Source of the DNA: a virus
Strand: one strand, 5' to 3'
Length of the DNA stretch: 27,592 nucleotides
Virus record (IMG/VR): IMGVR_UViG_3300010370_000187
Span: 1-27,592 of that record
In this document: one piece after another, positions 8,807 to 27,592 of the stretch
Layout: every line of letters starts with the position of its first letter
Position numbering within the stretch: position 1 is the first letter of the stretch
The notes under the pieces: generated by a model
What the model saw: only the letters and a program-made list of their open reading frames with translations
Database searches by the model: none
Told to the model about the DNA's origin: nothing
Program-made: the position numbers and the translations under genes

Positions 8807-10270
8807 CTAGTAATACTCAACAGGCGCAACATCCGGCTCCGACGCGTCCTCCTCATCATCCGCCAAAGCAATAAAGTTGCCCTGCCTGAACCGCATCCAC
8901 GCCATCACCGCCGAGTCCACCTGGTCATCGTGCGCGCCCACCGGAAACGCCGCACACTCCTCCACCAACTCCTGCGCCCAATCAAAATTCTCGGGATACC
9001 AAATCATCCCCGACTCCAACATCGGCGCAACCGCATTGGCCCGACTAATCTTGTCCGTCCCAGTCCGCCGCCCACCCGGCGAATACATCGTCACAGGAAT
9101 CCCCATCTTGCGCAACTCCTGCTGCAACGGCGTCCCCGTCGCCTTGGCCTCAATCAACACACTATCGGGCTTCCAATAACGATACTCGTCCCGCGCAACG
9201 CGTTTGAGCTCAGGAAAATCCCACCGGCCACGCTTTACATTCAACAAAATCAAATTTGGACCAGAATCCGCATTCGGATAAAACACCCCCCAGGTGCTGA
9301 CAACCGAAAAATCAGCAGTTTCTTTCTTTGAATACGCGGTATCGTAAGTTTGAATGATGTATTCGCACAGCGGCGGATCATCATGCTGCCACCGGCGCCA
9401 CCACTCCCGCTTCAAAATCGCTCCATCATCATTCGTCGGAACCTGCTGCCATTGCGCATTCCACTTCTTCAGGCCAATCGACAGTTTGACCTTTTCCAAC
9501 TCGTCCTTAGACCAAAATCCAGGCCACAAAGGATTACCAGACGGCAAAATCGCAGGAAATTCCAACAATTCCCACTGGTCCGCCTTCAAATTTCCCTGCT
9601 GGCGCAGTAAGCGCCCACTCAAATCATCGGTTTTCCAGCGAGTATTGATGACAATAATCGCCCCATTGGGCTGCAAACGCTGCCGCGGACCCGACGTGTA
9701 CCACTCAAACGTGTTTTCCATCGCCGTCTCAGACAAAGCATCCTGCTCATCCAAGATGTCGTCCAAAATCACAATGTCACCACCGCGGCCAGTCATCGCG
9801 CCGCCCTTACCAATAAAAAAGGCCTCCCCTCCCTGGGCCGTGTTCCACCGGCCGGCAGCCTTGGAGTCCGCAGACAGGGCCATGTTGGGGAACAATTCCT
9901 TGTATTTGTCGTCCTCCACAAGGTTACGAATCATGCGGCCAAACCGCTGGGCAAGTTCAGCGGTGTGAGAACCAACAATCAACTTGCTCTGGGGCCTCTT
10001 GCCCATCAAATACGCCGGGAAAAGATAACTTCCCATCTGCGACTTGCCATGCCGGGGCGGCATAGCAATCATCAGGCGCTTGCATTCACCCGTCACAACC
10101 CGGTCAAGAGCCTTTGCGATTCGACGATGATGCTCACCGACCAACATCTCAGGCCAAACATACTGGCAAAAACTGAGAAAGTCCGACGTTGCGCGCTCCT
10201 GGGCCTCCAAGAGCTTAAGTCGGAGCTGTAACCGGAGCCGTTCGGCTTCTACATCGTTAGGATTTTGCAT
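8807..10270 (-). CDS. terL: Terminase large subunit (ATPase and nuclease)
   Basis: 487 residues. The ATPase domain has Walker A in MPPRHGKSQ, Walker B in GGDIVILDDILDEQDA, and a coupling segment NTRWKTDDLSGRL. The C-terminal RNase H-like nuclease has DTAYSKKETADFSV, VLIEAKATG and HDDQVDSAVMAW, supplying acidic metal-binding residues. It powers DNA packaging at the portal and cuts the concatemer. It is the first gene of the virion operon. No Shine-Dalgarno is visible before the ATG at 10270, which is odd for this genome. The small subunit is not next to it but about 5.5 kb away. Confidence 0.95.
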   Translation of the reverse strand: MQNPNDVEAERLRLQLRLKLLEAQERATSDFLSFCQYVWPEMLVGEHHRRIAKALDRVVTGECKRLMIAMPPRHGKSQMGSYLFPAYLMGKRPQSKLIVGSHTAELAQRFGRMIRNLVEDDKYKELFPNMALSADSKAAGRWNTAQGGEAFFIGKGGAMTGRGGDIVILDDILDEQDALSETAMENTFEWYTSGPRQRLQPNGAIIVINTRWKTDDLSGRLLRQQGNLKADQWELLEFPAILPSGNPLWPGFWSKDELEKVKLSIGLKKWNAQWQQVPTNDDGAILKREWWRRWQHDDPPLCEYIIQTYDTAYSKKETADFSVVSTWGVFYPNADSGPNLILLNVKRGRWDFPELKRVARDEYRYWKPDSVLIEAKATGTPLQQELRKMGIPVTMYSPGGRRTGTDKISRANAVAPMLESGMIWYPENFDWAQELVEECAAFPVGAHDDQVDSAVMAWMRFRQGNFIALADDEEDASEPDVAPVEYY

Positions 10271-10631: not shown

Positions 10632-10898
10632 TCAGGTGCTTGCCTTCTGCTCCTGCTTTGCCTTGTAAGCCTCGTAACTGGCTTCGCTCTTGGCATGGGC
10701 GTCTGGTGTCAGCTCGAGGTCCTCGATCTGGACCTCGGGATTCTTGCTCAGGTCATACATGGACTTGTGCGTCTCATAGTTGTGGTATCCCTCGATTGTC
10801 TGCAATGTGGCAAGGAACCCCACCAATGCCTGGACATCCTTGATTGACATGGTGTCTGGAAGTGCAAACCTGATGTTGTTGACATGAAGCGTCTTCAT
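10632..10898 (-). CDS. Small early protein, unknown function
   Basis: 88 residues from the ATG at 10898. An in-frame GTG at 10901 is less likely, because the ATG keeps the AAGGA spacing of 7 bases seen in the neighbouring genes. The start MKTLHVNNIRFALPDTMSIK is beta-like, followed by VQALVGFLATLQTIEGYHNY, and the C-terminal half is charged and helical, ending KAKQEQKAST. It has no cysteines, signal or membrane segment. It has its own promoter and stem-loop leader and is followed by a terminator, so it looks like a single-gene unit. Family not recognised. Confidence 0.7.
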   Translation of the reverse strand: MKTLHVNNIRFALPDTMSIKDVQALVGFLATLQTIEGYHNYETHKSMYDLSKNPEVQIEDLELTPDAHAKSEASYEAYKAKQEQKAST

Positions 10899-10901
10899 CA
10901 C

Positions 10902-10979
10902 TCTATCCTTTCTTGGGTTGTCGCTGTAGCGGGTGCTACAGCGGGTTTGATTTTAGTCCACGCTGACTGTGAAAGTCAA
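10902..10979 (-). promoter_or_regulatory. Early-array promoter and stem-loop leader 1
   Basis: On the minus strand: -35 TTGACT (10979-10974), an 18-base spacer, and -10 TAAAAT (10955-10950). Next come a 9-bp perfect stem-loop (10922-10943, loop gggt) and the AGAAAGGATAG leader before the ATG at 10898. The -35 box lies inside the 3' coding end of the upstream gene at 10953. Confidence 0.7.
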
Positions 10980-11234
10980 ATCATTTCTCACAGTCTCCCT
11001 GACCAGGTCCCTCAAGTGGTCCGAGTTATCGAGGGTCTCCCTAACCGCGTCCTCGAGGTCGAGGTTGTTCTCCACCCAATCCTCGATCCTTGAGTCGAGG
11101 AGTGAGTCCATCCAGTTCTCCACCCGGGCATCAATTGCCTCGCGGCTGAGTTTTTCAAAAACCTTGTCAGCGACATCCTTGACCAGTTTGTCATAGAGGC
11201 CTCCGACAATCGTGAGGAATTCTGCTTGGTCCAT
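10953..11234 (-). CDS. Small acidic helical early protein, unknown function
   Basis: 93 residues, MDQAEFLTIVGGLYDKL onward. It is strongly acidic and helical, with two similar stretches (ARVENWMDSLLDSRIEDWVE) that suggest a short internal duplication or amphipathic repeat. The C terminus LTFTVSVD is beta-like. The ribosome-binding leader AGAAAGGAATAGAGA differs from its neighbours by one inserted base. Its 3' end contains the promoter of the next gene. Acidic helical early proteins of phages are often inhibitors of host enzymes or DNA mimics; that is only a possibility here. Confidence 0.7.
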   Translation of the reverse strand: MDQAEFLTIVGGLYDKLVKDVADKVFEKLSREAIDARVENWMDSLLDSRIEDWVENNLDLEDAVRETLDNSDHLRDLVRETVRNDLTFTVSVD

Positions 11235-11337
11235 TCTCTATTCCTTTCTGCGCCGCACCATGCGACATTAGTAATGTCCCACAATTGTCCAGGCGGCGCA
11301 ATTGAATTGTTGCTATCAGGGGCTTGCCCCTGATAGC
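11235..11337 (-). promoter_or_regulatory. Early-array promoter and leader 2
   Basis: On the minus strand: TTGCGC (11301-11296), a 17-base spacer containing ACAATTGT, and GACATT (11278-11273). A short dyad GACATT/AATGTC and the AGAAAGGAATAG leader follow before the ATG at 11234. Upstream of the promoter lies an 11-bp perfect hairpin (11312-11337, loop cttg). The box match is weaker than in leader 1, but spacing and placement repeat. Confidence 0.55.
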
Positions 11338-11366
11338 AGGGGCTCATGCCAGCCGCCCGGTCTGGC

Positions 11367-11621
11367 TTAGATGCTTAGCCTGACGAACCGAGTTCCGTCG
11401 GTTGTCCTGAAAAGGGAAAGCGTGCCCGGAACGGGCACGACGGGATAGACAACGGCGGCAATGACGCCGTCTTGGTCCCGGTAGATGTTCAGGTCATACT
11501 GCCCGTTCCACTCGATCCACTCATCCGGATCGAGAAGCTCTTCTGTCATCCCGGCGATGATGCGCCGGGCGAGGTCCTGCAATTGAACTAGCACGGGCTC
11601 GGGTATGGTGAATTGACTCAT
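11367..11621 (-). CDS. Small early protein, unknown function
   Basis: 84 residues starting MSQFTIPEPVLVQLQDLARR. A short helical N-terminal part is followed by a likely beta sheet (WNGQYDLNIYRDQDGVIAAV, then LSLFRTTDGTRFVRL). Its AGGATAGAGCC leader lies within the last codons of the upstream gene, and the two genes overlap by 4 bases, so they are translated as a pair. No catalytic motif seen and family not recognised. Confidence 0.68.
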   Translation of the reverse strand: MSQFTIPEPVLVQLQDLARRIIAGMTEELLDPDEWIEWNGQYDLNIYRDQDGVIAAVVYPVVPVPGTLSLFRTTDGTRFVRLSI

Positions 11622-11770
11622 GGCTCTATCCTGATGAAAAGCGTTCCACGCCCCTCATACGGGTAATCCGTTGCACGGGACCGGGCATCGTCCCGGTCCC
11701 GTGCCCAGATGGGGCACCTCAAGAAAGCCCCGCTGATCTCGCATCTGTAGACCGCATAGTAAATTCTCAT
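11618..11770 (-). CDS. 50-residue early protein, unknown function
   Basis: 50 residues from the ATG at 11770, which carries the full AGAAAGGATAGAGCC leader. A longer open frame runs upstream but has no such site and would cross the promoter. The sequence starts MRIYYAVYRCEISGAFLRCP, has two cysteines, and ends in GRGTLFIRIEP. It overlaps the downstream gene by 4 bases. Not recognised. Confidence 0.65.
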   Translation of the reverse strand: MRIYYAVYRCEISGAFLRCPIWARDRDDARSRATDYPYEGRGTLFIRIEP

Positions 11771-11848
11771 GGCTCTATCCTTTCTGCGCCGCATCGTGCG
11801 ACAGGGATACTGTCCCACAATTGTCCAGGCGGCGCAATTGGATTTTTT
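11771..11848 (-). promoter_or_regulatory. Early-array promoter and leader 3
   Basis: On the minus strand: an A6 tract (11848-11843), TTGCGC (11837-11832), a 17-base spacer with ACAATTGT, GACAGT (11814-11809), then a GACAG/CTGTC dyad and AGAAAGGATAGAGCC before the ATG at 11770. A stretch of 27 bases over the -35 and spacer is identical to leader 2. Confidence 0.6.
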
Positions 11849-11855
11849 CGATCGG

Positions 11856-11886
11856 GGCATGAGCCCCGATAGTCGGGGCTCATGCC
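11856..11886. repeat. 14-bp perfect inverted repeat after the Api92-like gene
   Basis: The arms at 11856-11869 and 11873-11886 pair perfectly around tag. The right arm with its flank (11863-11889) recurs at 12580-12606, with a diverged copy near 11328-11354. No T-tract follows on the minus strand, so termination is uncertain. Confidence 0.75.
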
Positions 11887-11892
11887 AGCGGG

Positions 11893-12483
11893 TCAGCCGC
11901 CCAGTCCGCACGGATACATCTCGGTGGGGATCGGGTCCCGGATAAGGGTGTTGAGGGAGGCGAATGTCCGCTCTACAACCTCGTAGTCGTCGAGCCCATG
12001 GCTCTCGTCATCGTCCCGGTTACCCCACTCGATCTTGATCGCCAGTTCCTCGCCATTGCGCCAGAAGCCAGCAAAGTCGCAGCCCTGTTCTGCGAAAGTG
12101 GCAAGGACATCGAACCCTAACTCCCGCAGGCGGGAGTAGATGCCCATGGGGGGTGACCAGGCGGTCTGGAATTCGGTGGTCAGGGTATCGCCCTCCCGTT
12201 CGACACCCAGATTTTCGGAGCGCCATTTCGTGCCCCAGTTGTTGAGCGACCAGTCATACCAGTCAGCCGCTCCGAAGAGCTCGATAAACTTGGCGGCTAC
12301 CTCTGGGTCCTGCTCGGGAGCGTTCCGCTCCCGAAGAGCCTCGGGCATCGGGTGGATGACCTCAAAAGCGTGATTGGGTCCGTGCTCCCCTTCAGCAAAC
12401 CCCGCCTCGAGGCGGGGCAGCAGCGCTCTGGCGGCATCCGTCGTTGCAATAATCCGGAGCCGGTTTTCGCACCAGTTTGGCAT
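11893..12483 (-). CDS. YubB/Api92-like protein (ferredoxin-like domain)
   Basis: 196 residues beginning MPNWCENRLRI, the signature start of the family, then a FEVIHPMPEAL segment, DWYDWSLNNWGTKWRSENLG and FQTAWSPPMGIYSRL. These match what I know of the Api92/YubB family found on phages and plasmids. The N-terminal MPNWC, the Asn-Trp-Gly-Thr-Lys-Trp core and the Thr-Ala-Trp-Ser-Pro-Pro motif are all present, so it looks intact. The biochemical function of the family is unknown. It has its own promoter and hairpin leader and is transcribed alone. Confidence 0.8.
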   Translation of the reverse strand: MPNWCENRLRIIATTDAARALLPRLEAGFAEGEHGPNHAFEVIHPMPEALRERNAPEQDPEVAAKFIELFGAADWYDWSLNNWGTKWRSENLGVEREGDTLTTEFQTAWSPPMGIYSRLRELGFDVLATFAEQGCDFAGFWRNGEELAIKIEWGNRDDDESHGLDDYEVVERTFASLNTLIRDPIPTEMYPCGLGG

Positions 12484-12565
12484 GATCTATCCTTTCTTGG
12501 GTTACGGCACAGCGCCGTGGCATAAATGTGCCACGGCGCTGTGGGCGGGGTCAAGAGAATTTTTT
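12484..12565 (-). promoter_or_regulatory. Early-array promoter and leader 4
   Basis: On the minus strand: an A6 tract (12565-12560), TTGACC (12554-12549), an 18-base spacer, and CACATT (12530-12525). A long perfect 15-bp hairpin (12508-12543, 6-base loop) has one arm inside the spacer and its loop over the -10. The AGAAAGGATAGATC leader follows. Because the dyad covers the promoter, it could be an operator as well as an RNA hairpin. Confidence 0.65.
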
Positions 12566-12570
12566 CTATT

Positions 12571-12597
12571 GAAAAATAAGCCCCGATAGTCGGGGCT
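12571..12597 (-). terminator. Intrinsic terminator of the DDIPF-protein unit
   Basis: On the minus strand AGCCCCGA pairs with TCGGGGCT around CTA, followed by TATTTTTC. It lies just past the stop at 12609 and before the promoter of the next gene. Confidence 0.8.
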
Positions 12598-12608
12598 CAT
12601 GCCAGCAC

Positions 12609-12845
12609 CTAAAAGGGGATGTCATCCTCCCAGTCCGGGCTGCGCTCGAAACTGCGAAGTTCAGCCTGCTCGAGTTCCTCGATAACTGTGTTGAGCAGGA
12701 CCAATGCAGCGGTGTAGACCGCAATGCCGGCTGAGCCGCCGGCAGCGGACGCCATGGTGCCCACATACTCGAGGGCTTCGGGGACCGAAGCCCTCGAGGC
12801 GAACATGGGCTGCCGATATCGGCTGATGGGGGTCAAGTCGCTCAT
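12609..12845 (-). CDS. Small early protein with an SSB-like C-terminal tip (DDIPF)
   Basis: 78 residues. The last residues are DWEDDIPF, the same tip as bacterial SSB (E. coli SSB ends DDDIPF). The rest is not an OB fold: it starts MSDLTPISRYRQPMFASR, has an Ala/Gly-rich helix (TMASAAGGSAGIAVYTAALV) and an acidic helix before the tip. It overlaps the upstream gene by 4 bases (ATGA), so the two are coupled, and a terminator follows. The SSB tip is known to recruit host repair and replication proteins such as RecQ, ExoI and PriA. A decoy or recruiter function is my inference. Confidence 0.7.
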   Translation of the reverse strand: MSDLTPISRYRQPMFASRASVPEALEYVGTMASAAGGSAGIAVYTAALVLLNTVIEELEQAELRSFERSPDWEDDIPF

Positions 12846-13024
12846 GCTGCCCCCTGCCGGTCCAATGGGTCAATGACATTGAGGTCCAGAAACTTCGGGC
12901 TCCACTGGTCCACCGGCAGCGCCGGGTTCAACGCGTAGCGCTCATCCCCCAACCACACAAGCACCTCGGCGTCCAAATTTATGCCAGGGGCGGAAAGCAA
13001 AGTAATCAATTCCTGCACTCTCAT
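12842..13024 (-). CDS. 60-residue conserved phage protein, unknown function
   Basis: Starts MRVQELITLLSAPGINLDAE and continues with VLVWLGDERYALNPALPVDQ, similar to many small phage proteins with an ELI-L-L start and a beta strand after a conserved Asp-Ala-Glu-Val. The leader is AGAAAGGAGAGAGCG. First gene of a two-gene unit with the DDIPF protein. Function unknown. Confidence 0.7.
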   Translation of the reverse strand: MRVQELITLLSAPGINLDAEVLVWLGDERYALNPALPVDQWSPKFLDLNVIDPLDRQGAA

Positions 13025-13104
13025 CGCTCTCTCCTTTCTGATGTCGCACCATGCGACACCGCTACTGTCGCACGGACCGGGGTCCGTGGCAAGTGAAATT
13101 TTTT
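13025..13104 (-). promoter_or_regulatory. Early-array promoter and leader 5
   Basis: On the minus strand: an A6 tract (13104-13099, overlapping the previous stop codon), TTGCCA (13092-13087), a 17-base spacer, and GACAGT (13069-13064). The spacer is filled by the palindrome CACGGACC-GG-GGTCCGTG (13071-13088). A 7-bp dyad TGCGACA/TGTCGCA (13052-13072) follows, then the AGAAAGGAGAG leader. Confidence 0.65.
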
Positions 13105-13306
13105 AATTGACCCGGCGCTCCCGATAGCGGGTGACAGCGTCCAAGTGGGGCTCCGCGTGGGAGCCCCACCCGAACAAGCGCACCCCATCCGGGTGATACA
13201 CCCGGGTGCGGGTATACATCTCCCGGGCTTGGCGCTCGCTCAGCGAGCGCCACTCGATCCGTTGTCCGGAGTCCGTCTCCAGCCAAAAGCGATAGCGGCG
13301 CTCCAT
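13103..13306 (-). CDS. 67-residue basic early protein, unknown function
   Basis: MERRYRFWLETDSGQRIEWR onward; Arg-rich, ending RYRERRVN, with a central SLSERQAREMYTRTRVYHP helix. The start has GAGGGGG from the last codons of the DUF932 gene, whose stop is 2 bases upstream, so it is probably co-translated with it. No family recognised. Confidence 0.68.
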   Translation of the reverse strand: MERRYRFWLETDSGQRIEWRSLSERQAREMYTRTRVYHPDGVRLFGWGSHAEPHLDAVTRYRERRVN

Positions 13307-13308
13307 GG

Positions 13309-14271
13309 TTACACCCCCTCGGCCAGCAGGTCAACAGCGCGCTGTTTCATCGCGGCGCCCGTGCCGAACCATGCGCTCTCGAGCCGCGTGTTATCGCTGC
13401 GGCCGCGCTCATGGTCCACCAACTGGGTCACAGCGTTGAGCATGGCCCAACGGGTCCCGGCCACGCCCGGGATGTCCGCGCCAATGGCCGCGCCATTGAA
13501 CAGCTGCAGCACCCGCTTGTAAGCCTTGGTGTCCTGAATCTCGAGCCGGCCGCTGTGGTAGGGCTCGAGCAGCGCCCGAACAAATTCGTCCGCCTGGCCC
13601 TCGCTCATGGGCGCCGCGGCCAGGGACCGGGACTGGACCAAGAAGCGCTCCCAAGAATTCGCCACAATGCCCAATTGCAGCCGCACCTCGTCCGCATCGA
13701 ATCGCTCGCTGTGCAACACGCGCACCGCGCCGCTGCCCTCGCCCAGCGCCCGAACAATAGTGTTATTGCACACCACGCGGACATCCGTCAGTTTCGCCAC
13801 CGTGGCCATGGTCCCGTCATAACTAGTCCCGAACAGAAGATACGGCCGAACGGTGTCCCCGTTCACAATTTCCGCGCCTTCCGAAACCCGGGCCAGGGCC
13901 CACACCCGGCGGCCATCGCTCAGCGCGCCAGCCGTCTCGAGCTCGAACCCGCCCAGCTCCCCCAGCCGGCGGAAAAAATCCATCACTTCCGCCGGCTGCA
14001 CCACGCGGTAACCGTCCGAAACCACGGCCAGCGGTGCACCGGTGTCGGACCGGTGCAGGACCTTGCGCAGCGGCCAGCGCTGCAGTTCCGTGCTCGCGGG
14101 GCTCTGATACAGCACCGGGGACTCCAGCACCGTATACCCCAGCCGGGCGGCCGCGGTCCATTGTTCAATTGACGCACCGGGCTGCAATTGCGCACCCAGC
14201 CCGTGCCAGGGAGCGCGCCCGACATAAGCCATCGCAGCCGCGCCCGTAGTCGTGTCAATCATGTGTGCCAT
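13309..14271 (-). CDS. DUF932 phage/plasmid-like protein
   Basis: 320 residues. The N terminus (AYVGRAPWHGLGAQL) is the usual start of the DUF932 family, which is found on phages and plasmids. It is followed by GAPLAVVSDGYRVVQPAEVM and GTSYDGTMATVAKLTDVRVV with CNNTIVRAL. These are the family's hallmark blocks, and the length is close to typical, so the gene looks complete. Its molecular role is not established. The leader AGAGAGGATAGAGAT is a slight variant of the array consensus, and the promoter has long palindromes upstream. It heads a two-gene unit with the small basic gene at 13103. GC content is high compared with the late genes. Confidence 0.85.
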   Translation of the reverse strand: MAHMIDTTTGAAAMAYVGRAPWHGLGAQLQPGASIEQWTAAARLGYTVLESPVLYQSPASTELQRWPLRKVLHRSDTGAPLAVVSDGYRVVQPAEVMDFFRRLGELGGFELETAGALSDGRRVWALARVSEGAEIVNGDTVRPYLLFGTSYDGTMATVAKLTDVRVVCNNTIVRALGEGSGAVRVLHSERFDADEVRLQLGIVANSWERFLVQSRSLAAAPMSEGQADEFVRALLEPYHSGRLEIQDTKAYKRVLQLFNGAAIGADIPGVAGTRWAMLNAVTQLVDHERGRSDNTRLESAWFGTGAAMKQRAVDLLAEGV

Positions 14272-14363
14272 ATCTCTATCCTCTCTCAGTTACGCCCGGC
14301 CACCGCGGCCCGGCATGGTTCGAATTCTCCACGGTCCGCGGACCGTGGTCCATTTGATTTTTT
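14272..14363 (-). promoter_or_regulatory. Early-array promoter and leader 6
   Basis: On the minus strand: an A6 tract (14363-14358), TGGACC (14352-14347), a 17-base spacer, GAGAAT (14329-14324), then the leader before the ATG at 14271. The spacer is almost entirely a perfect 20-base palindrome. Confidence 0.6.
14329..14348. repeat. Perfect 20-base palindrome in the promoter spacer
   Basis: CCACGGTCCGCGGACCGTGG equals its own reverse complement. It covers the space between the -35 and -10 boxes, a classic operator position, though no regulator is identified. Confidence 0.85.
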
Positions 14364-14365
14364 CA

Positions 14366-14385
14366 ATGGGCCCCGCGGGGCCCAT
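14366..14385. repeat. Second perfect 20-base palindrome
   Basis: ATGGGCCCCGCGGGGCCCAT equals its own reverse complement. It lies just upstream of the A-tract of the same promoter and could be an operator or the base of a terminator-like hairpin without a T-tract. Confidence 0.85.
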
Positions 14386-14520
14386 AGCCCCCCAGGATTC
14401 AAGCACCGCGGCCCAGGGACCGGGGGCCTGGTTTCCCGTGGCTGTTCTAACCGGGGACACCTATGCAAAAACCGCATAAGGGCCCACGGACCACACTAAT
14501 GCGGACCCTTGGGGTTAACA

Positions 14521-14586
14521 CTAGCCCGGGTCGATCTTATCCATGAGCCACCACATGGCCAGAAAAAACACTATTACGAGCAGCAT
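14521..14586 (-). CDS. 21-residue membrane micropeptide candidate
   Basis: An ATG at 14586 overlaps the stop of the upstream gene (TAATG), with GGGAG 8 bases before it. It encodes 21 residues: 12 strongly hydrophobic ones (MLLVIVFFLAMW) followed by a short charged tail. The hydrophobic run plus tail suits a single membrane helix. It is too short for gene finders, and its existence rests on coupling and hydrophobicity alone. Confidence 0.4.
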   Translation of the reverse strand: MLLVIVFFLAMWWLMDKIDPG

Positions 14587-15281
14587 TAAGACAGCTCCCG
14601 GCCGATATCCCCAGCGACATGATGGCGCAACATCGAGCCGTAGGGCAGGGACCGCGCAAAATTCCGAAGCGCTGCAGCATCATCAGAAAGCCCCTTCGTG
14701 CGGGTCCCGTGCCACTGTATAGCCGTGGGCCCACTGGCGGCGTAGCATCCGCCTTTCCCGGTCCCTACCTTTTTCGCGCCGGTCCCGTGGGCGACAAACA
14801 CCACCACAAAATCCCGGTTTCCCTGAGCGCACAAGGGGCGGCCATTGCCGCAGCGCTGGCAAGTGAAATCCTCGGACAGCTCCGCGGGGCAGCGTACAAA
14901 CTTGATACCGTGCACGGTTTTGGGCCATTGCTCGGCCGTATCTTTCGGGACCGCCAGCACCGCCGGCCGGCCGGACTCCACGGCCAGCACCGCATCGGCC
15001 ACGGTGTCACAGCTCGCATTGATTACGGTTTTTCCGGGAGCCGGCAGGGGCAGCGCCGCGGCCGCAAAGTGCGAATAAGTCCAAGCCTGGCCACCAGGGG
15101 GCACAGCATCGACCAGCGCCGCTAGATATTCAGCGTCAACCGTGGCCGCGCCGGTTTCGCTCTTCGGGTGCAGGCCGCATGTCCTAGGGCATGTCCCGTA
15201 GGTCTCATGGGTGCCGCTGCGGTAGGTCACAGCGATGGGGCCGGTTTTACTGTTACTGGAAACAGGAACGGTTTTAAGCAT
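14586..15281 (-). CDS. Cys-rich GP88-like phage protein with apparently rearranged blocks
   Basis: 231 residues. The N terminus KTGPIAVTYRSGTHETYGTC has the TCPRTC motif. A middle part contains AWTYSHF and NASCDTVADAVLAV. Then come a Cys cluster (CQRCGNGRPLC) and VVVFVAHGTGAKKVG. The C-terminal part has GGCYAASGP and LRHHVAGDIG. I recall a phage/plasmid family (GP88/DUF7227-like) with blocks in the order TCP-C, GCYA, R-H-GD, then W-YTH and the Cys cluster. Here the GCYA and RHHVAGD blocks are at the end instead. The cysteines suggest metal or Fe-S binding. The family call is from memory; function unknown. The leader is AGAAAGGATAGAG. Confidence 0.7.
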   Translation of the reverse strand: MLKTVPVSSNSKTGPIAVTYRSGTHETYGTCPRTCGLHPKSETGAATVDAEYLAALVDAVPPGGQAWTYSHFAAAALPLPAPGKTVINASCDTVADAVLAVESGRPAVLAVPKDTAEQWPKTVHGIKFVRCPAELSEDFTCQRCGNGRPLCAQGNRDFVVVFVAHGTGAKKVGTGKGGCYAASGPTAIQWHGTRTKGLSDDAAALRNFARSLPYGSMLRHHVAGDIGRELS

Positions 15282-15362
15282 GCTCTATCCTTTCTGAGTG
15301 CCGCACCATGCGACAGGGCCCACTATGCCCCACGGTGCCCTAGGCCGTCAATTTGTTTTTTT
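15282..15362 (-). promoter_or_regulatory. Early-array promoter and leader 7
   Basis: On the minus strand: an A7 tract (15362-15356), TTGACG (15351-15346), an 18-base spacer, CATAGT (15327-15322, 4/6 to TATAAT), then AGAAAGGATAGAG before the ATG at 15281. The A-tract encodes the last Lys codons of the upstream nuclease gene, and TGA of the -35 box is that gene's stop codon. Confidence 0.7.
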
Positions 15363-15785
15363 CAATGGGTCGAAGCCAGCCGATAGCAGCTCCACGACGG
15401 CGGTCCAGTCCACAGCACGGTCCGGCCAGGACATGATGGGCGCCACACGGAGCCCCGCCTGGGCAAGCTCGAAGGCCTGCAGGCCGGAATACAGCGCCAC
15501 CGATGGCGGCCGTTTTGTGTTCCCTTCGTCTCGGGTAAGCACGAAGCAGCGCCGGCCAGCCCTCCCGTGCCGCGTCAAGAAGGCCACTTGGTGGGGGCTT
15601 AAATTCACCGCGAGGCCCTTCGTGATGGCCTTGAGCTCGAGCATCACAAAATGATCCGCGAGGCCCACCAGCATGTCAGGCATGCCCAGGGTCACCCGGT
15701 TTTCTATCCTTTCAACAGCGCAGCCCTGGGATTTCAGCCCCTCCCTGACCCGCTGGGAAAACCTACTCTCAGGCGTCGATGGCAT
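15348..15785 (-). CDS. Putative PD-(D/E)XK nuclease (VRR-NUC-like)
   Basis: 145 residues from the ATG at 15785, which has GGGGAG 9 bases upstream. A longer open frame starting at 15869 lies wholly inside the terminase gene and lacks such a site. The core reads RIENRVTLGMPDMLVGLADH then FVMLELKAI, that is a Gly-x-Pro-Asp followed by Glu-x-Lys. This is the catalytic pattern of PD-(D/E)XK and VRR-NUC nucleases. HQVAFLTRHGRAGRRCFVL follows as in that group. It overlaps the small terminase by 17 bases. It may resolve or trim replicating DNA before packaging; the substrate is inferred. Confidence 0.7.
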   Translation of the reverse strand: MPSTPESRFSQRVREGLKSQGCAVERIENRVTLGMPDMLVGLADHFVMLELKAITKGLAVNLSPHQVAFLTRHGRAGRRCFVLTRDEGNTKRPPSVALYSGLQAFELAQAGLRVAPIMSWPDRAVDWTAVVELLSAGFDPLKKTN

Positions 15786-16437
15786 CGTCAGAATCTCCCC
15801 GCTCGAAGATATCAGGCGGAGGGTCTGCCACTCCAGGGTCAAAAGGTGGGTCGCGGTCTCGCTCGGCACTTTCGATCACCTCCCCCGTGCTTGCATCGAT
15901 GATGGCCGCCGGTGGGGGCCCACCGTAAAGCTTCTTCAGCTCGTCCAACTTGCGCTGCACTTCTTCTTTCGACATCGAGTCAATGGTCCCATGCCGAATT
16001 TCCTTCCGGTCCACATAGATGGTGCCCAGGGCCTGGCCGCGGCGATACTCCGCCTGGACAGCAGCAGCAAAGGCCCCTGCCTCGAGGGCCTTGTCTCGGA
16101 TGATCTGCAGGTCCCGCATGTGACGCTCGAAGCTCGTGTTGTACTTCGAGGCCAGTTCCGCGCGGTATGCTTGGATGGCCGAAACAACCTCGGGATACTC
16201 GTCCGGGTTGGTCAGTTTCCAGGCCATGACTGACGCAGACTTGGGGTTGTAGCCCGCCCGTATGGCAGCATCCTTCAACGTCACCCGACCGTCCCCCGCC
16301 ACATACTCTTGAACAAATTTCCATTGCTTGGGGTTCAAGGACTTGTACTGCTTCAGCGGCTTTACAGGACTGGCAAGCCTCTTGACGGCCTTGTTTGGAA
16401 TGACCGGTGGCACGTTCCAAACGTCTTTTTTGGTCAC
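15769..16437 (-). CDS. terS: Terminase small subunit
   Basis: 222 residues with a GTG start at 16437. GGAGG lies 5 bases upstream, and the GTGA overlaps the stop of the previous gene. The N-terminal helix-turn-helix region (NPKQWKFVQEYVAGDGRVTL, then DAAIRAGYNPKSASVMAWKL) is the DNA-recognition domain of small terminases. The middle is helical (RHMRDLQIIRDKALEAGAFA) with a conserved-looking RRGQALGTIYVDRKEI. The C terminus is acidic and Pro-rich. It recognises the packaging site and hands DNA to TerL. It is separated from terL by the whole early-gene array, which is unusual. Confidence 0.8.
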   Translation of the reverse strand: MTKKDVWNVPPVIPNKAVKRLASPVKPLKQYKSLNPKQWKFVQEYVAGDGRVTLKDAAIRAGYNPKSASVMAWKLTNPDEYPEVVSAIQAYRAELASKYNTSFERHMRDLQIIRDKALEAGAFAAAVQAEYRRGQALGTIYVDRKEIRHGTIDSMSKEEVQRKLDELKKLYGGPPPAAIIDASTGEVIESAERDRDPPFDPGVADPPPDIFERGDSDDAIDA

Positions 16438-17067: not shown

Positions 17068-17096
17068 TTGACGTGCAATCCGGCTTACCACACAAT
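17068..17096 (+). promoter_or_regulatory. Plus-strand promoter candidate P2 with conserved leader
   Basis: TTGACG (17068-17073), 17-base spacer, CACAAT (17091-17096). The transcript would start near 17103 and carry AGAAAGGATAGG before the ATG at 17124, the same ribosome-binding leader as the minus-strand array. Confidence 0.6.
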
Positions 17097-17123
17097 TGCA
17101 GACTCACAACAGAAAGGATAGGC

Positions 17124-18765: not shown

Positions 18766-18986
18766 TCTCTACTCAACAAGCCCGGATGCTGATGATGTTT
18801 GAGAAAGGTTGGGGCTTTCGTCTGTTCAATGACAGGCCGGGGTCATGGTGTACCTATTGGTCACTTGTCAGGCGCAAACTGATCTGCGACAGGAAGACTG
18901 TCACCCACGCCGGGAAGCCGGTCTGCATCCCCAAACTCAGCAAGATGGGGCAGAGGGAGTTGGAAAAGTATAGGGGGAAAGCATGA
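18762..18986 (+). CDS. 74-residue protein, unknown function
   Basis: From the ATG at 18762 (ATGA overlap with the previous stop): MISTQQARMLMMFEKGWGFR, then FNDRPGSWCTYWSLVRRKL, then a basic tail. No signal or membrane helix. The small aromatic-rich core may be a beta-type fold. Not recognised. The gene ends with an overlap into the next gene. Confidence 0.65.
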   Translation: MISTQQARMLMMFEKGWGFRLFNDRPGSWCTYWSLVRRKLICDRKTVTHAGKPVCIPKLSKMGQRELEKYRGKA

Positions 18987-19609
18987 GTTACGTCGTCGCC
19001 TCCCTGCCGCCCCTCAAGTGCTTCGTGAGGAAGGAATTCCTCTACAACCACGAGAAGGGGCACGGGGAGTTGGAGCCTGCCATCTGGGTCAGCATCAAGG
19101 CCCTGCGGGGGCAGGTGTTCCGAATCGAGTCCCTGCTGCCGGCATACGGGGCGCTGTACGACAAACTGCCGATCCACGCCTATGTCTGGAAGGCAGACCA
19201 CGGCGACCTGCCCATCGACACCCTCCAGTTGTGGGACTGCATGGGCTACCGCTTCACGGTGGTGGAAAAGATCGGACTGCGCAACCTCGGCGTGAAGTTC
19301 CTCGGCAAGGACAAGGAGTGGCACTTCGGCCGCTACCTGTTCACGGTGGACTTCTGCGCCGACGGCATGGACTTGGACACCGGATTCACAGAGCAAGCCG
19401 AGGAACACAAGTCCTTCAACTTCATCCGCCTGGACAACGGCCAGTTCGCCACGCAGCCCAACAACCGCTGCCTGTGGTATGACCAAAGCCTGGTCCCCGC
19501 AGAAACGAAGTTCCCCGACTTCCAAGCCGCCAGACAGTTTTGGTCCGTCGATGGCACCCCAAAGTGGGCCGCTGGCGACGATTGGTTTTACACCGTCAAA
19601 GAAAGATGA
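18983..19609 (+). CDS. 208-residue conserved phage protein, unknown function
   Basis: Starts MSYVVASLPPLKCFVRKEFL, the longest gene of the rightward block. It has a mixed alpha/beta pattern with no clear catalytic motif: YVWKADHGDLPIDTLQLWDC, FTVVEKIGLRNLGVKFLG and FNFIRLDNGQFATQPNNRCL. Several Trp and Tyr suggest a compact globular domain. It is in the ATGA chain with the previous gene and is followed by the exported Rap1a/Tai-like gene. I do not recognise the family; it looks cytoplasmic. Confidence 0.7.
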   Translation: MSYVVASLPPLKCFVRKEFLYNHEKGHGELEPAIWVSIKALRGQVFRIESLLPAYGALYDKLPIHAYVWKADHGDLPIDTLQLWDCMGYRFTVVEKIGLRNLGVKFLGKDKEWHFGRYLFTVDFCADGMDLDTGFTEQAEEHKSFNFIRLDNGQFATQPNNRCLWYDQSLVPAETKFPDFQAARQFWSVDGTPKWAAGDDWFYTVKER

Positions 19610-26965: not shown

Positions 26966-27523
26966 TTATGCTGATTTGATGGTCGCCCTTTGGCCGATAT
27001 ACGCGCCAAAGAGGTCTTGGGGGAACGCTTCGCCGCGCTCCACCCGCTCGCGAACCCAGGCCTTGAGGGTCTGGGATTCGATCTTCTGCTCTTGATCAAC
27101 CGGATAGTTTTTCTCGCGCAGTAGATTCAATAGCTCAGCGCACAGGCCGTCTTCGTTCCGGCCGAAGCGCACTGAGACCGTGTTCTTGATGATGTCGTCA
27201 AAGCCGTGCTGGCGCAGCCACTCAAAAGCCTGCGCCCGGTTGTCGGCCTTGATGCTTGCGCTGTAGAAGGGCTTGACATCAATCTGGCTTCCGTCAGCCA
27301 TCGTGAATTTCTTCATGCCCAGTTCTTCAAGTTTGGCGGGGATGGCCTCCTCGAGCAGTTTGCGCTGCTGTTCCTTGCGCTCGCTGATCACACGGTCCAA
27401 GTCCTCAATTTCCTTTTCGAGTTCTTTGGCCCGCTTGGCTAAGGCTCCAACGGACGACAGGTCGTCGTCCTTGACGGTCAGGGCGTTGGCATCCTGCTCA
27501 AACAGGGTGTTCAGGTCATTCAT
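26966..27523 (-). CDS. Conserved phage protein of the replication block, unknown function
   Basis: 185 residues with AAGGAG 6 bases before the ATG. Residues 30-70 are a coiled coil (AKRAKELEKEIEDLDRVISE). The core GMKKFTMADGSQIDVKPFYS and AFEWLRQHGFDDIIKNTVSV is a common phage pattern, ending QTLKAWVRERVERG and DLFGAYIGQRATIK. It is found next to SSB-type genes in many phages. No enzyme motif is visible; it may be a DNA-binding accessory factor or a nuclease inhibitor. Confidence 0.72.
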   Translation of the reverse strand: MNDLNTLFEQDANALTVKDDDLSSVGALAKRAKELEKEIEDLDRVISERKEQQRKLLEEAIPAKLEELGMKKFTMADGSQIDVKPFYSASIKADNRAQAFEWLRQHGFDDIIKNTVSVRFGRNEDGLCAELLNLLREKNYPVDQEQKIESQTLKAWVRERVERGEAFPQDLFGAYIGQRATIKSA

Positions 27524-27592
27524 CCAGCTCTCCTTTCTCGGTGGTGTCGATCAAAATCGGGATGTACAAGCGCTCGCGGCGGTCCCACTTCA
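27516..27592 (-). CDS. C-terminal end of an upstream gene (partial)
   Basis: The minus frame open at the right edge ends at TGA (27518-27516). It codes for 24 visible residues starting KWDRRERLYIPILID and ending KGELDE. It overlaps the next start by 8 bases and its end contains that gene's ribosome-binding site, a typical arrangement in this block. Too short to name. Confidence 0.55.
   Translation of the reverse strand, partial: KWDRRERLYIPILIDTTEKGELDE

Follow-up and report, generated by a model that had tools for sequence, protein, structure and literature searches.

Candidate exchangeable expression cassettes with predicted 5'-terminal RNA hairpins between the terminase genes of uncultured lake phages

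Results

Leaders in the region between the terminase genes

The window analysed here is a 27,592-base virus contig of IMG/VR (IMGVR_UViG_3300010370_000187), taken at its full length; its genes include terminase, portal, DNA polymerase and helicase. The genes for the two terminase subunits, terS and terL, border a stretch of minus-strand genes preceded by seven leaders of one plan: promoter boxes, a dyad and the motif AGAAAGGATAGAG, with a Shine-Dalgarno sequence (SD), just before the start codon. The seven leaders were proposed by an earlier sequence-only reading, and all are present on the minus strand at the gene starts it named (Table 1). With up to one mismatch allowed, six copies of the motif are present where shuffles predict 0.02. 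Leaders 1, 3 and 7 carry it unchanged, leaders 4, 5 and 6 each differ from it by a single mismatch, and leader 2 shows a one-base insertion. The -35 boxes and the spacers of 17-18 bases are as that reading listed them, the A6-A7 tract of five leaders is found in leaders 3-7 only, and the promoters of leaders 1 and 7 do overlap the end of the neighbouring gene. The -35/-10 pairs stand at a fixed place; relatives show canonical TATAAT, whereas the boxes of the window are weak.

Two statements about the genes are not supported. One is that nearly every gene has a cassette of its own; the second genes of the two-gene units (starts 11621, 12845 and 13306) have no leader of their own, and only AGGATAGAGCC stands before the ATG of the 84-aa gene 11621-11367. 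Nor is there any reason to call the genes early, because the cassettes sit inside the packaging block. A clear minus-strand terminator was found at 12600-12576; other candidate terminators in the region are doubtful.

Table 1. Genes and leaders of the cassette region, with rule-placed transcription starts
Feature	Position	Strand	-35	-10 (spacer)	Predicted +1	Hairpin	SD	Remarks
terL	8807-10270	-						terminase large subunit; downstream border of the array
Cassette gene 1	10632-10898	-						88 aa from ATG 10898; no family match
Leader 1	10901-10979	-	TTGACT 10979-10974	TAAAAT 10955-10950 (18)	10943	10943-10922 (9 bp)	AGAAAGGA 10913-10906	ATG 10898
Cassette gene 2	10953-11234	-						93 aa; weak, sub-threshold Pfam match only
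Leader 2	11242-11301	-	TTGCGC 11301-11296	GACATT 11278-11273 (17)	11266	11266-11252	11249-11242	ATG 11234; three arms
Two-gene unit	11367-11770	-						11770-11618 (50 aa) overlaps 11621-11367 (84 aa)
Leader 3	11773-11850	-	TTGCGC 11837-11832	GACAGT 11814-11809 (17)	11802	11802-11788	11785-11778	ATG 11770; A6
Cassette gene	11893-12483	-						196 aa; weak Api92-like/DUF1281_C match, phrog_20518
Leader 4	12485-12566	-	TTGACC 12554-12549	CACATT 12530-12525 (18)	12518	12518-12504	12497-12490	ATG 12483; A6
Leader 4 palindrome	12543-12508							arms 12508-12522 and 12529-12543; straddles -10
Two-gene unit	12609-13024	-						13024-12842 (60 aa) and 12845-12609 (78 aa)
Leader 5	13027-13106	-	TTGCCA 13092-13087	GACAGT 13069-13064 (17)	13057	13057-13043	13039-13032	ATG 13024; A6; spacer palindrome 13088-13071
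Two-gene unit	13103-14271	-						DUF932 protein 14271-13309 (320 aa) and 13306-13103 (67 aa)
Leader 6	14274-14365	-	TGGACC 14352-14347	GAGAAT 14329-14324 (17)	14317	14316-14292	AGAGAGGA 14286-14279	ATG 14271 (DUF932); A6; 20-bp spacer palindrome 14348-14329
DUF7227 protein	14586-15281	-						231 aa
Leader 7	15283-15362	-	TTGACG 15351-15346	CATAGT 15327-15322 (18)	15315	15315-15299	15295-15288	ATG 15281 (DUF7227); A7
terS	15769-16437	-						terminase small subunit; upstream border of the array
Eighth leader, divergent	17068-17123	+	TTGACG 17068-17073	CACAAT 17091-17096			AGAAAGGATAGG 17111-17118	ATG 17124; same SD as other leaders

Predicted RNA hairpins at rule-placed transcription starts

Transcription starts were placed by rule, 7 nt after the -10 box. 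In folds made with this placement, all seven RNAs of the window open at +1 or +2 with a hairpin of 5-9 pairs; a linker and an unpaired SD come next. The hairpin is separate from the palindromes considered below and is present in each leader; that of leader 2 is seen when the untranslated region (UTR) is folded alone, and a fold including the first codons prefers another structure. The shuffle probability, as a product over the leaders, is 7e-5 with a fixed +1 and 1.5e-3 if three starts are allowed, leaders 2, 3, 5 and 7 not being independent in this product. The window by itself thus gives moderate evidence for the predicted +1 hairpin, and it is the relatives that settle the matter.

A search of related phages for the motif had been suggested, and it is productive. 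The pattern AGAAAGGATAGAGNNATG matches at least 120 contig stretches in IMG/VR, with up to six exact copies in one, and the DUF932 protein starting at 14271 has 340 relatives there. Among cultured phages, megablast with the window gave no match. The pattern matches and the DUF932 relatives together yielded 250 leaders less than 75% alike; 137 distinct leaders had a clear -10 box, and 129 of them could be folded. One contig, L129, is identical to window positions 16900-12664 and probably represents this phage in a different sample.

In 96 of the 129 related leaders the fold has a helix of 5 or more pairs starting at +1 to +4, compared with 9% of shuffles, and 94 of these helices begin at +1 or +2; the SD is about 82% unpaired. 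By the 5'-helix measure, the leaders reach 76%, control phage contigs 31%, and other SDs on the same contigs as the leaders 17%. The control contigs came from a search with the SD-like motif of the metagenome-assembled phage DSL-LC04, mostly with one match per contig; lambda and Rhodoferax phage P26218 were dropped as controls because of too few cases (2 and 1), and the latter has no shared leader. Among the 137 leaders, 58% have an RNA-confined stem with a score of 6 or more, compared with 5% of shuffles; in 60 of 79 cases such a stem begins 4-7 nt past the -10 box, with a peak at 6-7. Over all 250 leaders, stems upstream of the SD cluster at about -16 to -24, -44 to -56 and -76 to -92.

The pairs themselves point to selection at the RNA level. 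Downstream of a clear -10 box, non-Watson-Crick pairs in transcribed stems comprise 15 G.U and 2 A.C (two-sided binomial about 0.002); the unrestricted count over the 250 leaders is weaker (32 G.U and 15 A.C), with no bias in stems scoring at least 8. In eight DUF932 orthologs 97.5% of cells are paired and four of ten pairs have changed on both sides. Two-sided changes were observed in 11 cells against 3.5 in shuffles, and covariation is above that of all 500 shuffles. The same can be seen by eye in close relatives, with arms GCTGTAGC-GCTACAGC in the window and GCTGCAGC-GCTGCAGC in L130. Since RNA tolerates G.U but not A.C, these comparisons indicate that the transcribed stems are kept as sense RNA, with selection on pairing and not on letters. 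The suggested selection on structure is therefore supported for the 5' hairpin, which is kept by compensatory and G.U changes; the sequence-only reading had not, however, separated the RNA hairpin from the palindromes of the promoters.

Leaders 2 and 3 belong to a 112-nt duplication with 82% identity (11242-11353 and 11778-11889). Both have three arms of the type TGCGACA/TGTCGCA/TGCGRC, as does leader 5, and the middle arm can pair either with the left arm, in DNA or in read-through RNA, or with the right arm in the leader's own RNA. The divergent eighth leader, overlooked by the sequence-only reading, is kept in relatives. The sequence AGAAAGGAGAG also stands near the end of the contig, at 27526-27538 on the minus strand, ahead of an open reading frame starting at 27523.

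Palindromes between the promoter boxes

Palindromes between -35 and -10 were found in 28% of leaders and 5% of shuffles, those of at least 8 bp in 18% and 0.2%. The long spacer palindrome described for leaders 4, 5 and 6 is indeed present in leaders 5 and 6, whereas that of leader 4 straddles the -10 box. The spacer palindromes lie outside the RNA made from their own promoter, and their few mismatches (2 G.U and 3 A.C) have no G.U bias. Thus they probably are a separate feature acting at the level of DNA, which suggests that the RNA hairpin and the promoter palindrome are different things.

One possibility is that the dyads are operators, through which a repressor of phage or prophage origin would keep all the cassettes silent at once. 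Enrichment over shuffles without G.U bias is what DNA-level dyads should show. Moreover, the palindrome AGCGGACA/TGTCCGCT recurs in several phages, and CACGGG/CCCGTG occurs three times in one. However, most palindromes differ within a genome (7-mers are shared in 15% of pairs within and 10% of pairs between genomes), which makes it unlikely that a single repressor recognises all of them; the +1 hairpins with their G.U bias would also be left unexplained. As an account of the leaders, operators are rather unlikely.

Upstream of many leaders, for instance at 7460-7500 of L130, a stem CTATCGGGGC..GCCCCGATAG directly follows the preceding stop codon. It is trailed by an A-tract and has no T-tract, and therefore is not an ordinary terminator.

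Shine-Dalgarno sequence and candidate host

The sequence AGAAAGGA is the complement of UCCUUUCU. The 16S genes in five genomes of the Azohydromonas family end in CCTCCTTTCT, and Acinetobacter reads CCTCCTTAAC; the five genomes were used because the 16S tails of the Azohydromonas and Accumulibacter drafts are unreadable. Azohydromonas itself carries DUF932 relatives. By this complementarity, AGAAAGGA is an SD matching the 16S tails of Burkholderiales, and we infer a burkholderialean host for the phage.

Several gene starts of DSL-LC04, whose record gives Gammaproteobacteria as the host, are preceded by hairpins after a TATAAT-like box. Because DSL-LC04 keeps such leaders but has a different SD, ACATAC-GGAGAAA, the ribosome site seems to be matched to the host while the plan of the leader stays. 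The DSL-LC04 paper makes no mention of promoters or repeats.

Exchange of genes behind the leaders

Loci that hold terS, DUF932 and terL contain 282 leaders, of which 252 are flanked by terS and terL and share their strand. Each of the other 30 is the divergent leader, upstream of terS; no leader was found past terL. The 548 leader-gene pairs fall into 95 gene families, of which 51 occur a single time. In 73 family pairs, genes of different families follow 70-nt leaders that are nearly identical (at least 85%, up to 100%), although some of these pairs reflect gene loss and not replacement, and very short protein families may be split at the E-value cut. For example, the leader that precedes the MDQA gene in L138 is found before the 10901-type gene in L139 and L143. 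L130 lacks the 13024 gene, and there leader 5 directly heads the 12845 gene; in L132 the block corresponding to window positions 12580-11353 is absent, and the joint falls in a repeat. These arrangements support exchange of genes behind a shared start unit, and the proposal that whole cassettes are gained and lost fares well, as identical leaders precede unrelated genes.

Discussion

Comparison with known systems

The sequence-only reading had pointed to the start-associated sequences (SAS, ESAS) of cluster K mycobacteriophages. The two are alike in several respects: many copies of a short asymmetric motif stand just before start codons in an accessory region, about half of the copies have inverted repeats ahead of them, and the motif consists of an SD and unpaired conserved bases. 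However, the inverted repeats of cluster K have a common consensus and give no support for pairing in RNA (PMC3203893). Here the reverse is seen, with arms that vary among the leaders of a genome and covary. Nor does the description of SAS include -35/-10 promoters or a hairpin at +1. The 13-bp GGGATAGGAGCCC has no match with up to two mismatches before start codons of the window, and 17-bp inverted repeats with a consensus within the genome were not found, the arms mostly differing among the leaders of one genome. Failing both tests, the leaders are not members of SAS or ESAS, although they work like a set of start-associated sequences.

Morons of lambdoid phages are genes with their own promoter and terminator. 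The cassettes resemble them as small, putatively autonomous genes set into a block of late genes, which relatives have gained or lost: the presence or absence of genes between conserved neighbours, as in L130, L132 and across the 95 families, is the pattern of morons. Unlike morons, they form a whole array, with one reusable leader plan serving the 95 families and with the 5' hairpin and the host-matched SD as recurrent modules; terminators are not consistently present, and the promoters are predicted ones. As a side observation, a 208-aa protein at 18983-19609 (+) matches the ferredoxin family phrog_3704 (E 4e-75), which is filed under 'moron, auxiliary metabolic gene and host takeover'.

Boundary or linker sequences are known at phage gene junctions. 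They are similar in that a short shared sequence lies where unrelated genes have been exchanged, but here the joint would be a complete expression start unit.

Finally, some mRNAs are stabilised by a 5'-terminal stem-loop, among them ompA, papA and engineered bla; the stem is preceded by few unpaired nucleotides or none, and a single-stranded ribosome site comes after it (PMC3997798). The leaders are alike in this, the stem lying within about 4 nt of the rule-placed 5' end in all seven window leaders as well as in the 96 relatives, and differ in being a repeated and diversified phage element known here from prediction only. No description of such leaders was found in the literature searched.

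Proposed mechanism and alternatives

The explanation that we favour, and regard as reasonably probable, is that the stretch from terS to terL is a moron-like array of exchangeable cassettes, each leader being an autonomous start unit with three modules. The first would be a host promoter of the sigma-70 type, often with an A-tract resembling an UP element. The second would be an RNA hairpin beginning at the transcription start, behind which the AACCC-type linker and the SD stay single-stranded. The third would be the extended SD AGAAAGGA, fitting the CCUCCUUUCU tail that 16S rRNA has in Burkholderiales. Recombination near the start codon, presumably homologous, may also use the leader as a joint for the exchange, loss and gain of genes.

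If the hairpin begins at the transcription start, it would deprive RppH and 5'-end-dependent RNase E of a free 5' end. Both are hindered by 5' secondary structure (PMC3997798). Whether the hairpin in fact stabilises the short monocistronic or two-gene messages, and so prolongs their life, we regard as evenly balanced.

An alternative function would be insulation, in which the hairpin keeps the ribosome site free from upstream RNA and the 5' end is irrelevant. Indeed, the SD is unpaired in the folds and the hairpin stops a few nucleotides ahead of it. But insulation would allow the stem anywhere before the SD, and 94 of 99 first helices within the UTR lie at +1 or +2, whereas those of shuffled sequences spread from +1 to +10. 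Hence protection of the message, which requires a stem at +1, is favoured, and insulation alone is unlikely.

Several observations weigh against the array of autonomous cassettes with 5'-terminal hairpins. Six of the seven -10 boxes in the window are weak, TAAAAT being the only one near consensus. A sigma-70 consensus scan of the region gives 4 promoters against 2.1 +/- 1.7 in shuffles and is passed only by leaders 1 and 7; taken alone, the window has promoters no better than chance. The transcription starts themselves are predictions of a rule. The eighth leader has no 5' hairpin, and leaders of DUF7227 genes have it in 21% of cases, a small excess over the 8% of shuffles. A 5'-terminal helix is also present in 31% of the promoter-plus-SD leaders of the control contigs (L217-L336, e.g. 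L218), compared with 7% of shuffles, and thus the +1 hairpin may be a wider habit of phages. Finally, many E. coli mRNAs decay independently of the 5' end (PMC3997798).

Tentatively, and with less confidence than in the array as such, the leaders could be regarded as a phage-specific system in which the recombination joint is a complete start unit, and unrelated accessory genes are inserted behind it in the stretch from terS to terL. While the letters drift, two rules of structure would be kept, namely the RNA hairpin at +1 and, in a subset, the DNA palindrome between -35 and -10. The drift is possibly favoured as a bar to recombination between the cassettes of one genome.

Inverted repeats made or repaired without selection, through template switching by the phage polymerase, would account for the many perfect and sequence-free dyads, but are very unlikely given their fixed places relative to the -10 box and the SD and the far greater tolerance of G.U than of A.C, in transcribed stems only. 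Least credible is a put-like role, in which hairpins at the 5' end of the predicted transcripts would modify the starting RNA polymerase, in the manner of phage HK022: put RNA is larger and conserved in sequence, whereas the arms and loops seen here show free variation, and several of the units are short.

Implications

If the array of exchangeable cassettes is real, a large group of uncultured lake phages expresses swappable accessory genes through 5' ends conserved in structure. Most of the 95 families behind the leader are small, and those checked in the window are little or not annotated; the leader would thus be a handle for finding new host-takeover or counter-defence genes. The leaders would also provide an example of a ribosome site tracking the 16S tail of the host, and a natural set of cases on which to test how far the decay of mRNA during infection depends on the 5' end.

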